64,000 bases of DNA, taken from positions 1,640,001 to 1,704,000 of the forward strand of contig NZ_CP092831.1 of NCBI RefSeq assembly GCF_022531965.1. Reading direction: 5' to 3'. Source of the stretch: Paenibacillus peoriae. GTDB taxonomy: Bacteria; Bacillota; Bacilli; Paenibacillales; Paenibacillaceae. Numbering within the stretch: position 1 is the stretch's first letter; each line of letters starts with the position of its first letter. Below are positions 43,861 through 47,863 of the stretch, in pieces. A model generated the notes under the pieces. It was not told the DNA's origin, did not search any database, and saw only the letters and a list, made by a program, of their open reading frames with translations. A program made the translations under genes and the position numbers.

Positions 43861-43931
43861 GCGGGTGTAGTTCAATGGTAGAACTTCAGCCTTCCAAGCT
43901 GATAGCGTGGGTTCGATTCCCATCACCCGCT
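43861..43931 (+). tRNA. tRNA-Gly (anticodon TCC)
   Basis: Acceptor GCGGGTG/CACCCGC, D-arm GTTCAATGGTAGAAC, anticodon stem TCAGC/GCTGA around loop CTTCCAA (anticodon TCC), T-arm GTGGG TTCGATT CCCAT, discriminator T. Length 71 bases, no CCA encoded. Single gene with its own terminator. Confidence 0.96.
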
Positions 43932-43980: not shown

Positions 43981-44200
43981 GTTTGGAGTAGATAAATACA
44001 TTATAGCCGGGGTGCCAATGGGGTATCACGGCTTTTTGCGTTCTTACGAACTATTTTTACATTGCCACACAAAATAAAATATAAAACATTTAGCTTATAT
44101 GCTATAAATAAACAGATAAAAAGAACTATTTACCATTTACTAAAAAATAAGTATAGTCGCATTGTTGGGATTTAACTTAAAAAAGGATGGTGTAGCTGCA

Positions 44201-45241
44201 ATGAGGAAAATTTCTTTTCTGTTTTTAGCATTAACTTTGGTGCTGCTTACTTTCCCTGCAAGTTCTACGTTCGCCGCTGCTGATTTTCCGAATACGTCGA
44301 CGAATGGAATGACTGGTTTTGCCGGACAGGCTAAAAGTGAAAATGGAGCTACTAAGCCTGCCACAACAGGGGGAAAAGGCGGTCAGATTATCTATATCAA
44401 TAATCTAAACGATTTGAAAAACCAGTTAGGGGATTCAACTCCTAAAATTCTGGTCATCGAAAAAAATATTTCTGCCTCCTCTAAAACCGTGGTCAACATT
44501 GGTACTAACAAATCGCTCATTGGTTCTTATGCGCAAAACAAACTGGTTAACATTCATTTGAAAACAACAAATAATTCGGGAAATGTGATCTTTCAAAATT
44601 TAACTTTTGAGCACAGTGCCAACATTAACGGTAACGATGACATCCAACTTTATCTTACTGCGGGCACAAATTATTGGATTGATCATGTTACGTTTGCAGG
44701 TCACAGTTATAATGCAAATGGCTCGGATCTGGACAAACTTTTGTACATAGGCCAATCGGCTGATTATGTAACCATTAGTAACTCCAAATTTGCTAATCAT
44801 AAATATGGTCTCATTTTGGGATATCCTGATGATGGCAATAAAAATTATGATGGCATGCCCCATATCACGATCGCTAATAATTATTTTGAAAACTTACTTG
44901 TACGTGGTCCAGGACTCATGAGATATGGATATTTCCATGTTAAAAATAATTATATTAATAATTTTCAGCTTGCTTATACCATTGCTACGAATGCAAGAAT
45001 CTATTCTGAGTACAACTACTTTGGAAAAGGTAATGAAAAGGGCGGTATTCTTGATGATAAAGGCAATGGCGAGTTTAAAGATGTAGGGAGTTTTCCCACC
45101 ATCAACAATCAAAAATCGCGTGTAACCAACTGGAATCCAAGCAAGAACTATAGCTATCAAGTTCAGACTCCTGAATATACTAAAGAGTTTGTAACGAAAT
45201 ATGCAGGCTCGTCGAATACAACTTTGGTATTTGGAAAATAA
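44201..45241 (+). CDS. Secreted pectate lyase, polysaccharide lyase family 1
   Basis: 346 residues from ATG 44201, behind AAAAAGGATGG; the longer frame from 44162 lacks a site. Residues 1-28 are a signal peptide ([20 protein letters not shown], cleavage probably after STFAA). The mature part is a right-handed beta-helix lyase: [29 protein letters not shown], the metal and fold motif [11 protein letters not shown], the catalytic-Arg region [20 protein letters not shown], and [11 protein letters not shown]. It cleaves homogalacturonan by beta-elimination, with calcium. Typical of plant-associated Paenibacillus. Ends [14 protein letters not shown]. Pectin versus pectate specificity is not decided. 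Confidence 0.88.
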
Positions 45242-45250
45242 CGAGGGTTA

Positions 45251-45279
45251 TTTGCAAATGTGTTGTGATCTGCTATACT
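45251..45279 (+). promoter_or_regulatory. Promoter of the ABC-F leader transcript
   Basis: TTTGCA at 45251-45256 and TATACT at 45274-45279, spacing 17. Start expected near 45286, 13 bases before the leader peptide. Confidence 0.6.
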
Positions 45280-45298
45280 AACCGCAAGTAATTATCCC

Positions 45299-45334
45299 AT
45301 GAAAAGGAAGGTAACCATACGTCCGATGAAGTAA
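45299..45334 (+). CDS. Leader peptide MKRKVTIRPMK of the ABC-F gene
   Basis: ATG 45299 to TAA 45334 gives 11 residues. It lies between a promoter and a terminator that precedes the ABC-F gene. The residues 2-4, K-R-K, form the +x+ motif at which macrolide-bound ribosomes are known to stall on short leaders such as the MRLR type. The Shine-Dalgarno sequence is poor. Reading it as a regulatory leader is inference. Confidence 0.45.
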   Translation: MKRKVTIRPMK

Positions 45335-45534
45335 GCACACTGATTTTCCCACTTAACTGCACAGTTACTGGCAGGCGGCTGTAAGCTGCAACGGGAGAAG
45401 TGTGTCTGAAAATGAATGTAGGGACGTATGCGTTTATTCCGGAACGGGATTTGGCTTATTCGTTTACGGTGTTATTTTTCATAAGCGTATGTTCTGAAAC
45501 GATTCATAACAGTCATTCTATATTCCTTGTATGC

Positions 45535-45561
45535 AAGCCGCAGCCTTCTGCGGCTTTTTTT
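45535..45561 (+). terminator. Attenuator terminator in front of the ABC-F gene
   Basis: AAGCCGCAG (45535-45543), loop CCTT, CTGCGGCTT (45548-45556) and seven T, ending 45 bases before the coding start. GCGGCT at 45375-45380 could pair with AGCCGC and disrupt the hairpin, giving an antiterminator. Confidence 0.85.
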
Positions 45562-45606
45562 ATTGCTTCCGGGGTCAAAAAACCGGGCTGGGAAAGGATG
45601 ATCGGT

Positions 45607-47457
45607 ATGAGAACGATTTTGCGTATTCGCAATGTAGTAAAGGATTGGAACGGGACATCTTTATTTGAGAATGTGTCGTTGGATGTGATGGAAGGAGAAC
45701 GGCTCGCACTGTTTGGAAGAAATGGAGCAGGTAAAACGACGTTATTGCGAATATTGCTGGGAGATGAAGTGCCAACCTCTGGTCAAGTAGAGCATGATTT
45801 GCCACTGGAAGAGCGGGGCTGGCTGAAGCAGCAGGATACGGTGGATTGGTCTCGAACCGCACTGGAGGCCGCACAGCAGGCCAGCCCTCGGCATTGGCTC
45901 CTCAAGCAAGCGTTGGGACAGCTGGAAGCTGACCTAGCCGATGCTGGGAAGGATATGGAGCATCATCTGGAGCGTTACGGCGAGCTGATGGATGAATACG
46001 AACACCTGCAAGGCTTTGCCTGGGAGTCTGAGGTGGAAAAGGCGCTCACTCGAATGGGAATGCCTGCCCAGACGTGGTCCATTGCTTATGGTGACCTGAG
46101 TGGCGGACAGAAGACGAGAGTGCGGTTAGCCGGACTGATGGTCAGGCAGCCGAAGCTGCTGGTGCTGGATGAGCCGACCAACCATTTGGATGCCGAAAGC
46201 TTGCTTTGGCTGGAGCAGTGGCTGTCCACGTATCCGGGAACGCTGCTGTTTGTATCGCATGACAGAGCCTTTTTGGATCGAGTGGCTACGAGTATAGTTG
46301 AGCTTGCATCAACGGGTATTGGGCGCTATAAAGGCGGCTATAAGGAATATAAAGCGCAAAAGGAGCGGGAACTGCGAGAGCAGGAAGCCAGCTATCGAAA
46401 GCAGGAGCTGGCGAAACAGGCACTGGAGGAAACGATTCGAAATTACAGGGAATGGTTTCACCAGGCACATCGTAGCGCATCCAAAGTCGAAGTGGCTATT
46501 ACACAGAGCTTCTATAAGGCCAAGGCTAAAAAAAATATCTCCCGTTATCATGCGAAAGAAAAAGAACTGGAGCGACTGGAGGCTAACAGGGTAGAACAAC
46601 CACGTGAAGCTCCGTCTTTGCACATGAAATTAAGTGACAGCGGGTTTCAGGCAAAATATTTGCTGCGTGCTGAGCAGGTTGACTTTAGCTACGACGACCG
46701 TATCATTGTGAAAAATCTAAATCTGATCGTTGCACGTGGAGACCGTCTGGCTGTTCGGGGGCCCAATGGAATTGGTAAAACCACACTGCTTCGGTTATTA
46801 ACAGGTCAACTGGAGCCGCAGACAGGAAAAATCACAGCCAACCCACAGTTGAACATCGGATATTTTTCACAGGAGCTGGAGCAGCTCCCAGAGGATCAAA
46901 CGTTGCTGGACAGTCTGCTTGCGCTTCCGACGATGACGCAAACAGAAGCGAGAACAGTGTTGGGCTGCTTTCTTTTTGCGAAAGAGGACGTGTTTAAAAG
47001 GATCGGGACACTTAGTATGGGAGAAAAATGCAGGGTAGCTTTTCTGCGTCTGTACTTTAGTGGAGCCAATCTGCTGGTGCTGGATGAACCGACGAATTAT
47101 TTTGACATTGAAACCCGTGAAATTGTAGAGGATTCTTTGCGTAACTATGATGGAGCACTGGTGCTCGTCTCACATGATCGGGAGCTGGTGAGGAGCACGG
47201 CAACTCGGTTACTCGATATGAAGCCGGGGGGCAGATATGAAATCTATGAGGGGACAGCCGACGAAAAGCAAGAAGATGAACGGAGCCGTCAACGGGAGCC
47301 AGAAGACCAGGAGCGGCGTGAGGAACGTCTTCGATTACAATTGCGTCTTACAGAGTTGATGGGAATGACAGGCACGAATGACGAAAATGAAAAGTTGTTG
47401 AGCGAAATCAGGCGCATTCGTGCAAATCTGGAGCGGTTGGATGATCTCGATATCTAA
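45607..47457 (+). CDS. ABC-F family ATPase, probable ribosomal protection protein
   Basis: 616 residues from ATG 45607, with AAAGGATGA 5 bases upstream. The frame is open back to 45400, but that part contains the attenuator. Two ABC domains without membrane segments: Walker A LFGRNGAGKTT (about 37-45), signature LSGGQKTR (about 164), LLVLDEPTNHLD; then GPNGIGKTT (about 385), LSMGEKCR and LLVLDEPTNYFD. The inter-domain linker (about 255-345) is long, basic and alpha-helical, as in antibiotic-resistance ABC-F proteins (Vml/Msr/Vga type), which displace ribosome-bound drugs. A further charged tail follows the second domain. The attenuator supports an inducible resistance role; the drug class is unknown. 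Confidence 0.88.
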   Translation: MRTILRIRNVVKDWNGTSLFENVSLDVMEGERLALFGRNGAGKTTLLRILLGDEVPTSGQVEHDLPLEERGWLKQQDTVDWSRTALEAAQQASPRHWLLKQALGQLEADLADAGKDMEHHLERYGELMDEYEHLQGFAWESEVEKALTRMGMPAQTWSIAYGDLSGGQKTRVRLAGLMVRQPKLLVLDEPTNHLDAESLLWLEQWLSTYPGTLLFVSHDRAFLDRVATSIVELASTGIGRYKGGYKEYKAQKERELREQEASYRKQELAKQALEETIRNYREWFHQAHRSASKVEVAITQSFYKAKAKKNISRYHAKEKELERLEANRVEQPREAPSLHMKLSDSGFQAKYLLRAEQVDFSYDDRIIVKNLNLIVARGDRLAVRGPNGIGKTTLLRLLTGQLEPQTGKITANPQLNIGYFSQELEQLPEDQTLLDSLLALPTMTQTEARTVLGCFLFAKEDVFKRIGTLSMGEKCRVAFLRLYFSGANLLVLDEPTNYFDIETREIVEDSLRNYDGALVLVSHDRELVRSTATRLLDMKPGGRYEIYEGTADEKQEDERSRQREPEDQERREERLRLQLRLTELMGMTGTNDENEKLLSEIRRIRANLERLDDLDI

Positions 47458-47514: not shown

Positions 47515-47863
47515 CAATAGTTCGAATTTTTGAAAATGTCTTGATGGAGAAGAGTAGACAGTGTCCGATTGAACAGGGAGGAAGCGTCGTAGGATTGAGA
47601 GCGTTTCTGCAAATACTGGGCTGTTGAAGTTCGCTCCGGAGCAGTTCCTTGAACCTCAGGCGCCATGTGAATGGCGAATGTGCAAGTAGGGGATACCGGT
47701 TCACGACCGTTATAACGTGCAGAGCGAGACGATGATGCATAGCATGAACAATCACCTGTAACTATGTTGCCGTAAGGCAAAACGCCGGGTGAGCTAAGCT
47801 TATTGTCTAACGAGGGTGGTACCACGGTCTTTTCGTCCCTTACCGGGAGGAAAGACCTTTTTT
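47515..47863 (+). promoter_or_regulatory. T-box leader of pheST, phenylalanine type
   Basis: Begins with the stem I sequence TGATGGAGAAGAGTAGACAG, has the specifier TTC (Phe) at 47630-47632 in GTTGAAG-TTC-GCTCCGGAGC, the GGTGGTACCACGG core at 47815-47827 and the terminator GGTCTTT...AAAGACC at 47827-47857 with T-run. Uncharged tRNA-Phe promotes readthrough into pheS. Confidence 0.93.

Follow-up and report, generated by a model that had tools for sequence, protein, structure and literature searches.

Control of ABC-F genes by short upstream open reading frames (uORFs) has been shown by experiment for vmlR of Bacillus subtilis (PMC9226507) and for cplR of Clostridioides difficile (PMC10201436). 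In the published description the vmlR leader, of 219 nt, carries a uORF encoding MIN within an anti-antiterminator hairpin (SL-1), followed by an antiterminator, an intrinsic terminator and the ABC-F gene. The residues of vmlR-type uORFs vary among Bacilli (MIN, MDN, MDK, MRK), the start codon and Shine-Dalgarno sequence are needed, and the system has additional layers involving NusG pausing and ppGpp (PMC9226507). The cplR leader (uORF MRI) is described as a uORF-containing 5' hairpin and a terminator upstream of the ABC-F gene, the terminator additionally hiding the Shine-Dalgarno sequence of that gene, and the VmlR2 leader has a uORF of the form MK[L/Q] (PMC10201436). Within the publications compared, ABC-F uORFs have at least three codons (MIN, MK[L/Q], MRI, MAGN, MLV, MVGDDDISG). 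Two-codon minigenes, such as that of axe-txe and the dipeptide ORFs that precede B. subtilis ycbK, are reported to act in cis on the next gene, the effects described being on its translation or mRNA stability and not on a terminator or in response to a drug (PMC8708949).

The locus analysed here lies in a 64-kb stretch of DNA, referred to as the window. In the order of its parts it resembles vmlR (short uORF in a hairpin, antiterminator, terminator, ABC-F gene), and by description it also resembles cplR. It differs from vmlR in that 281 nt separate the uORF start from the ABC-F start and in that the uORF reads Met-Lys-stop in most leaders. The Met-Lys start is like that of VmlR2, although the uORFs of cplR and VmlR2 have three codons and that described here has two. 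The uORFs of the actinomycete ARE5 leaders (MLV and MVGDDDISG) are different again and come from another phylum (PMC12421871), and the likeness to the two-codon minigenes lies in a two-codon ORF placed ahead of a gene on which it acts, or here would act, in cis. No match to the leader was found in Rfam 15 at the gathering score, the 64-kb window yielding two tRNAs; at a lax threshold nothing in the window leader approached that score, and seven relatives gave tRNA and T-box matches only. Among the open-access titles and abstract openings that matched search words for Paenibacillus ABC-F leaders and two-codon attenuator uORFs, this leader was absent. The kind of attenuator is known from vmlR and cplR; neither the two-codon uORF nor the RNA described here occurs in Rfam 15 or in the publications compared.

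We conclude that a ribosome-mediated transcription attenuator, with a two-codon uORF (AUG AAG UAA) as its sensor, very probably controls this chromosomal ABC-F ribosome-protection gene. The basis is comparative and computational: the uORF start, its Shine-Dalgarno sequence, the hairpin SL1, the terminator and the gene are conserved, and SL1 and the antiterminator pairing co-vary.

Parts of the leader and their distribution

The promoter, 11-codon open frame, GCGGCT element, terminator and ABC-F start reported by an earlier sequence-only reading are all present in the window. Its view that an attenuator precedes the ABC-F gene is also supported as regards the uORF-type layout and the potential pairing of a terminator arm with an upstream element; the choice of the 11-codon peptide as sensor is not. 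The parts, in window numbering, are as follows.

45251..45279, + strand: putative promoter TTTGCA-17-TATACT with extended -10 (TG before the -10), from sequence match and position trend in relatives
45293..45437, + strand: conserved leader RNA element, from covariance models R1 (E 1.4e-25) and R2 (E 4.8e-21)
45299..45334, + strand: 11-codon open frame MKRKVTIRPMK, not conserved and judged incidental
45302..45311, + strand: uORF Shine-Dalgarno sequence AAAAGGAAGG (-9.8 kcal/mol in the window, with 118 loci averaging -9.5)
45316..45324, + strand: SL1 base, 5' arm CATACGTCC, lying just ahead of the uORF start (fold, co-variation)
45326..45334, + strand: two-codon uORF ATG AAG TAA (Met-Lys-stop), from conservation among 127 loci
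45335..45341, + strand: SL1 second helix, 5' arm GCACACT (fold, co-variation)
45370..45380, + strand: predicted antiterminator strand GGCAGGCGGCT, containing GCGGCT (45375-45380), from pairing computation
45398..45406, + strand: SL1 second helix, 3' arm AAGTGTGTC (fold, co-variation)
45421..45430, + strand: SL1 base, 3' arm GGGACGTATG (fold; co-variation, 0/5000 permutations)
45535..45561, + strand: intrinsic terminator, stem 45535-45556 followed by a T-run; the left arm, 45535-45543, can pair with the antiterminator strand
45590..45598, + strand: ABC-F Shine-Dalgarno sequence (-11.2 kcal/mol for the start at 45607)
45607..47457, + strand: ABC-F ATPase of ribosomal-protection type, 616 aa (NF000355, above cut-off)

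The promoter pattern was found twice against 1.6 expected in shuffles, so that chance suffices for this match alone; the best -10-like hexamer ends 46-48 nt upstream of the uORF in 78 of 127 loci and has a mean score of 5.9 in relatives versus 4.9 in shuffles. The terminator pattern was found once against 0.3 expected. The window leader has a fold z of -2.79 and is more stable than all of 100 dinucleotide shuffles.

When the leader was used as a nucleotide query against 75 genomes belonging to the window's genus, its own counted, 61 gave a match. Covariance model R1 was built from alignment A1 (30 of these 61 leaders) and R2 from alignment A2 (65 of 106 leaders); the window's match to both (G000:1685293-1685437) is that of a sequence, L001, which is included in both models. 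At E 0.001, R1 matched 105 of 394 family genomes (74/75 in the window's genus and 31 in four other genera) and gave 106 loci. All 45 that were newly fetched lie upstream of an ABC-F gene whose product is 47-60% identical to the window's. R2, applied at E 0.01, gave matches in 101 of 392 genomes sampled from the order and in 29 of 398 sampled from the class, adding 12 further loci from the order and nine from outside it, every one before an ABC-F gene. The nine outside the order are weak (E 9e-5 to 0.0096) and belong to two other families, eight being in g69 and one in g96. An ABC-F homologue or remnant lies downstream in 127/127 loci, including the window's own, and 45, 12 and 9 of these were found by the models alone. 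Since the models contain no part of the gene and the gene nevertheless agrees, even the weak matches are supported. The ABC-F gene is truncated, mostly deleted or partly matched in L006, L007, L014, L015 and L042. A separate scan of genome contigs gave 80 loci with distant ABC-F relatives (29-36% identity), and these are excluded from the counts.

SL1, the terminator and the antiterminator pairing

SL1 comprises a base (CATACGTCC/GGGACGTATG), a second helix (GCACACT/AAGTGTGTC) and inner hairpins. The 3' arm of the base was predicted in 59 of 61 single folds; it is absent from L003 and L014 and oddly placed in a few. In 39 of the 127 leaders the SL1 region has a mean z of -3.1, with 33 of the 39 at or below -2. 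For both the base and the second helix a leader's own partner was better than those of other leaders (0/5000 permutations each), in permutations of the same 39 leaders run without a within-clade control. Fold and co-variation thus both place the uORF in a hairpin of the kind expected of an anti-antiterminator.

A scripted search that took in 106 of the 127 loci, leaving out the last 21, found a terminator in 102; the misses are L017, L107, L108 and L109. The pairing of the left terminator arm with the SL1 interior was examined by permutation in 47 non-redundant leaders of these 102, with clade labels assigned by the analysts. Own pairings averaged -19.5 kcal/mol against -16.2 when permuted, and none of 5000 permutations was as good (3/5000 when permuted within clades), whereas the corresponding values for the right arm, as control, were 110/5000 and 1463/5000. 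The own left-arm pairing was stronger than the median of shuffled arms in 47/47 leaders and stronger than the best 5% in 28/47. When bare arms only were compared, the right arm was slightly more complementary, the left being stronger in 15/44; with loop and flanks included the left arm was stronger in 41/47. Compensated changes were seen by eye in L126 (CTACGGT/ACCGTAG), L130 (CTACAGT/ACTGTAG) and L111 (CTGCGGC/GCCGCAG), and an A-C mismatch in this pairing was counted by eye in 10 of 18 listed g8 and g5 leaders.

That terminators are so widespread and that their left arms co-vary with SL1 argues for transcription as the main layer of control. Chiefly translational attenuation, in which stalling would free the ABC-F Shine-Dalgarno sequence and the terminator would be secondary, is on these grounds improbable, even though a GC-rich hairpin lies between the window terminator and that Shine-Dalgarno sequence and cplR is described as using both transcriptional and translational layers (PMC10201436).

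The effect expected of a ribosome on the leader was modelled in 42 of the 102 leaders by blocking the ribosome site and folding the RNA before the right terminator arm exists. With a footprint on the uORF AUG at 45326, the predicted pairing between the left arm and the SL1 interior rose from 0.01 to 0.76 in the window, and its mean over the 42 leaders rose from 0.30 to 0.73. The rise exceeded 0.1 in 29 leaders and no leader fell by that much; the 13 with no such shift are mostly those in which the pairing is already predicted ribosome-free (e.g. L004, L005, L013). A footprint on the ATG of the 11-codon frame gave a partial shift (mean 0.57, window 0.39) and a shorter, purely 5' footprint gave 0.37 and 0.12, respectively. 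A footprint 45-76 nt downstream gave 0.01; as it overlies the antiterminator strand itself, it is void as a control. In the full-length equilibrium fold the window terminator still wins (0.94) with a ribosome on the uORF, and of the 42 leaders 20 shift and 22 change by no more than 0.1. As the equilibrium fold favours the terminator, capture of its left arm would have to be kinetic. An antiterminator exclusive with the terminator is supported computationally, the bare-arm and equilibrium results opposing.

The two-codon uORF and its Shine-Dalgarno sequence

The sequence ATGAAGTAA (ATG AAG TAA) is found in 102 of the 127 loci. Of the remainder, five read ATG GAG TAA, 19 begin at the same ATG but run on for 3 to 9 codons (in a subclade of g8, in g69 and in isolated cases), and one, L007, whose ABC-F is truncated, has lost the start. 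In 66 of the 127 loci (L092-L152, L233-L241) the uORF was located by ATG-containing patterns, which means that finding it at these loci is not independent evidence; alignment A2 covers 36 of those 66 using a model trained on leaders that have the uORF. Where the full 26-base core served to position the loci (61 in number), the start codon is kept in 60, the exception being L007. In A2, from whose rows L007 is absent, the ATG is identical in 65/65 and the GG of the Shine-Dalgarno sequence is invariant as well, while the spacer and codon 2 are variable.

Shine-Dalgarno-like pairing (-13.8 to -6.8 kcal/mol) was found in all 118 loci tested. The distance from the last GG to the AUG is long, at 11-14 nt in 116 of the 118; for a two-codon minigene, spacings of 7-15 nt from the Shine-Dalgarno centre are described as effective (PMC8708949). 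The block kept in the 61 genus loci consists of a purine-rich Shine-Dalgarno sequence, GGTAACC or similar, the spacer and then, in 59/61, ATGAAGTAA. At the level of sequence, the leader thus has a uORF with its own Shine-Dalgarno sequence, as expected of a ribosome-mediated attenuator. The spacer in the window (45312-45325) is of 14 nt and begins with GGTAACC, which is kept in most leaders across genera; this conservation perhaps exceeds what SL1 pairing needs. A near-start codon closer to the Shine-Dalgarno sequence was considered and rejected, the triplet being variable within the genus when inspected by eye (ATA, ACA, CTG, TTG). In eight g69 leaders (L234-L241) a GTG-NNN-TGA, some 500-640 from the 5' end in match orientation, overlaps the conserved ATG at a shorter Shine-Dalgarno spacing, and in g69 either this or the ATG frame could be the sensor.

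These observations also bear on whether the leader is a riboswitch that binds a protein or a metabolite, or is simply a structured RNA in which ATG AAG TAA is kept for RNA pairing alone. SL1 is indeed long and strongly folded, and its conservation is wider than that of the peptide. Against this, the AUG is invariant in A2 although its spacer and neighbours change, Shine-Dalgarno-like pairing and a downstream ABC-F gene occur at every locus tested (118 and 127, respectively), no Rfam family is matched at the gathering score, and the known ABC-F leaders are described as acting through uORFs (PMC9226507, PMC10201436, PMC12421871). We regard such a reading as quite improbable.

It is very improbable that the sequence-only reading was right in having MKRKVTIRPMK translated and stalling with macrolides through K-R-K: the frame is open in the window, K2-R3-K4 is formally the +x+ motif at which macrolides and ketolides are described as stalling (PMC8298421) and a footprint at its ATG shifts the structure partly, but its start has no Shine-Dalgarno sequence (-0.1 kcal/mol, compared with -9.8 at the internal ATG), would come as little as some 12 nt after the predicted 5' end of the transcript, and is limited to 12 close relatives, window counted (in-frame ATG in 6/118 leaders and GTG in 6/118, all within L001-L015). 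In 88 of 118 leaders no in-frame start within 60 nt upstream extends the uORF frame. Through most of the genus the block opens with ATGAATGAGAGGTAACC and the 11-codon frame does not exist; by eye, an ATG one base nearer opens a different frame that closes after four codons. The AAA AGG AAG codons of the supposed motif lie in the uORF Shine-Dalgarno sequence, which makes this a case of a Shine-Dalgarno sequence that, when read as codons, mimics a stalling motif. No conserved, translatable +x+ leader peptide of the MRLR type was found among the 118 leaders, and the macrolide +x+ peptide was rejected on account of the absent Shine-Dalgarno sequence and of the non-conserved frame, an outcome that the sequence-only reading had itself named as refuting. 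Macrolide sensing is unlikely here, since a two-residue product would have no space for a +x+ motif.

The ABC-F gene, the proposed mechanism and its meaning

Against NF000355 (ribosomal-protection-like ABC-F; cut-off 380) the window protein reaches 478 bits, which marks it by sequence as ribosomal-protection type (ARE-ABCF) and as a candidate for a role in resistance. Among the 25 models listed of 189, those for named ABC-F subfamilies (Sal, Vga, Msr, CplR, OptrA, Lsa) all score it under their cut-offs. The best solved relatives of its profile are PDB 7p48, 8buu and 7nhl, which we take to be Sal, VmlR2 and VgaA. Families of the Sal, VmlR2 and VgaA type are described as protecting from pleuromutilins, lincosamides and streptogramin A (PMC10201436). 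Of the 120 homologues listed of 7164, those named are mostly Paenibacillus ribosomal-protection-like ABC-F proteins, with some from Saccharibacillus, and the nearest named homologue among the matches listed belongs to Paenibacillus kribbensis (90% identity). The window itself is thus most likely from Paenibacillus. A tiamulin ABC-F known from Paenibacillus sp. LC231, TaeA, was considered as a lead and dropped; it is placed in Uup (PMC6723617). A further paper on Paenibacillus ABC-F proteins concerns mobile lsaB, and no leader of the present kind was found in the portion compared (PMC8116656).

The surroundings of the gene contain other RNA elements. In the window the ABC-F gene is followed by a T-box leader at 47532-47843 (85.8 bits, below the gathering score of 93) and then by two genes resembling, by eye, pheS and pheT; an above-threshold T-box lies downstream of ABC-F in L126. 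Of 24 loci scanned, 11 yielded a tRNA-Gly, and tRNA-Gly(tcc) lies within approximately 200 nt upstream of the leader in L016, L018, L019, L031, L046, L105 and L112; in the window a pectate lyase gene (44162-45241) separates tRNA-Gly (43861-43931) from the leader, as if inserted.

From the attenuator layout we infer uORF translation, stalling, the drug classes concerned and readthrough, in the following manner. In the absence of drug the uORF would be translated and the ribosome would leave at once, the long SL1 would close over the uORF with the antiterminator strand folded inside it, and RNA polymerase would halt at the terminator, at about 45561. A drug that blocks the first peptide bond would hold the ribosome on the AUG, where it would cover approximately 45311-45342 and stop the SL1 base from forming. 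The antiterminator strand, thereby left free, would capture the left arm of the terminator before the right arm is transcribed, and transcription would run on into the ABC-F gene. This course of events agrees with the scheme tested for vmlR (PMC9226507) and cplR (PMC10201436), and by analogy the predicted inducers are blockers of the first peptide bond, macrolides not being expected among them. Macrolides require a longer nascent chain, and phenicols and oxazolidinones require particular residues.

A wider proposition is that the leader represents a widespread, unlisted family of RNA attenuators of the Bacilli whose sensor has shrunk to the bare minimum, a start, one sense codon and a stop, the peptide itself being irrelevant; we consider the arguments for and against this evenly balanced. 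If true, only the first peptide bond would be tested, and the uORF would act as a filter for drugs that hit initiation or the first transpeptidation. Macrolides, and the context-dependent phenicols and oxazolidinones, would escape it. Conservation of such a sensor would extend past the order, each clade having tuned the structure. The leader offers a clean natural test of the minimum leader peptide needed for antibiotic sensing and yields a covariance model of which all 127 matches examined precede this type of ABC-F. From the proposed mechanism one can also predict the drugs expected to induce intrinsic resistance in soil Paenibacillaceae and those expected not to.
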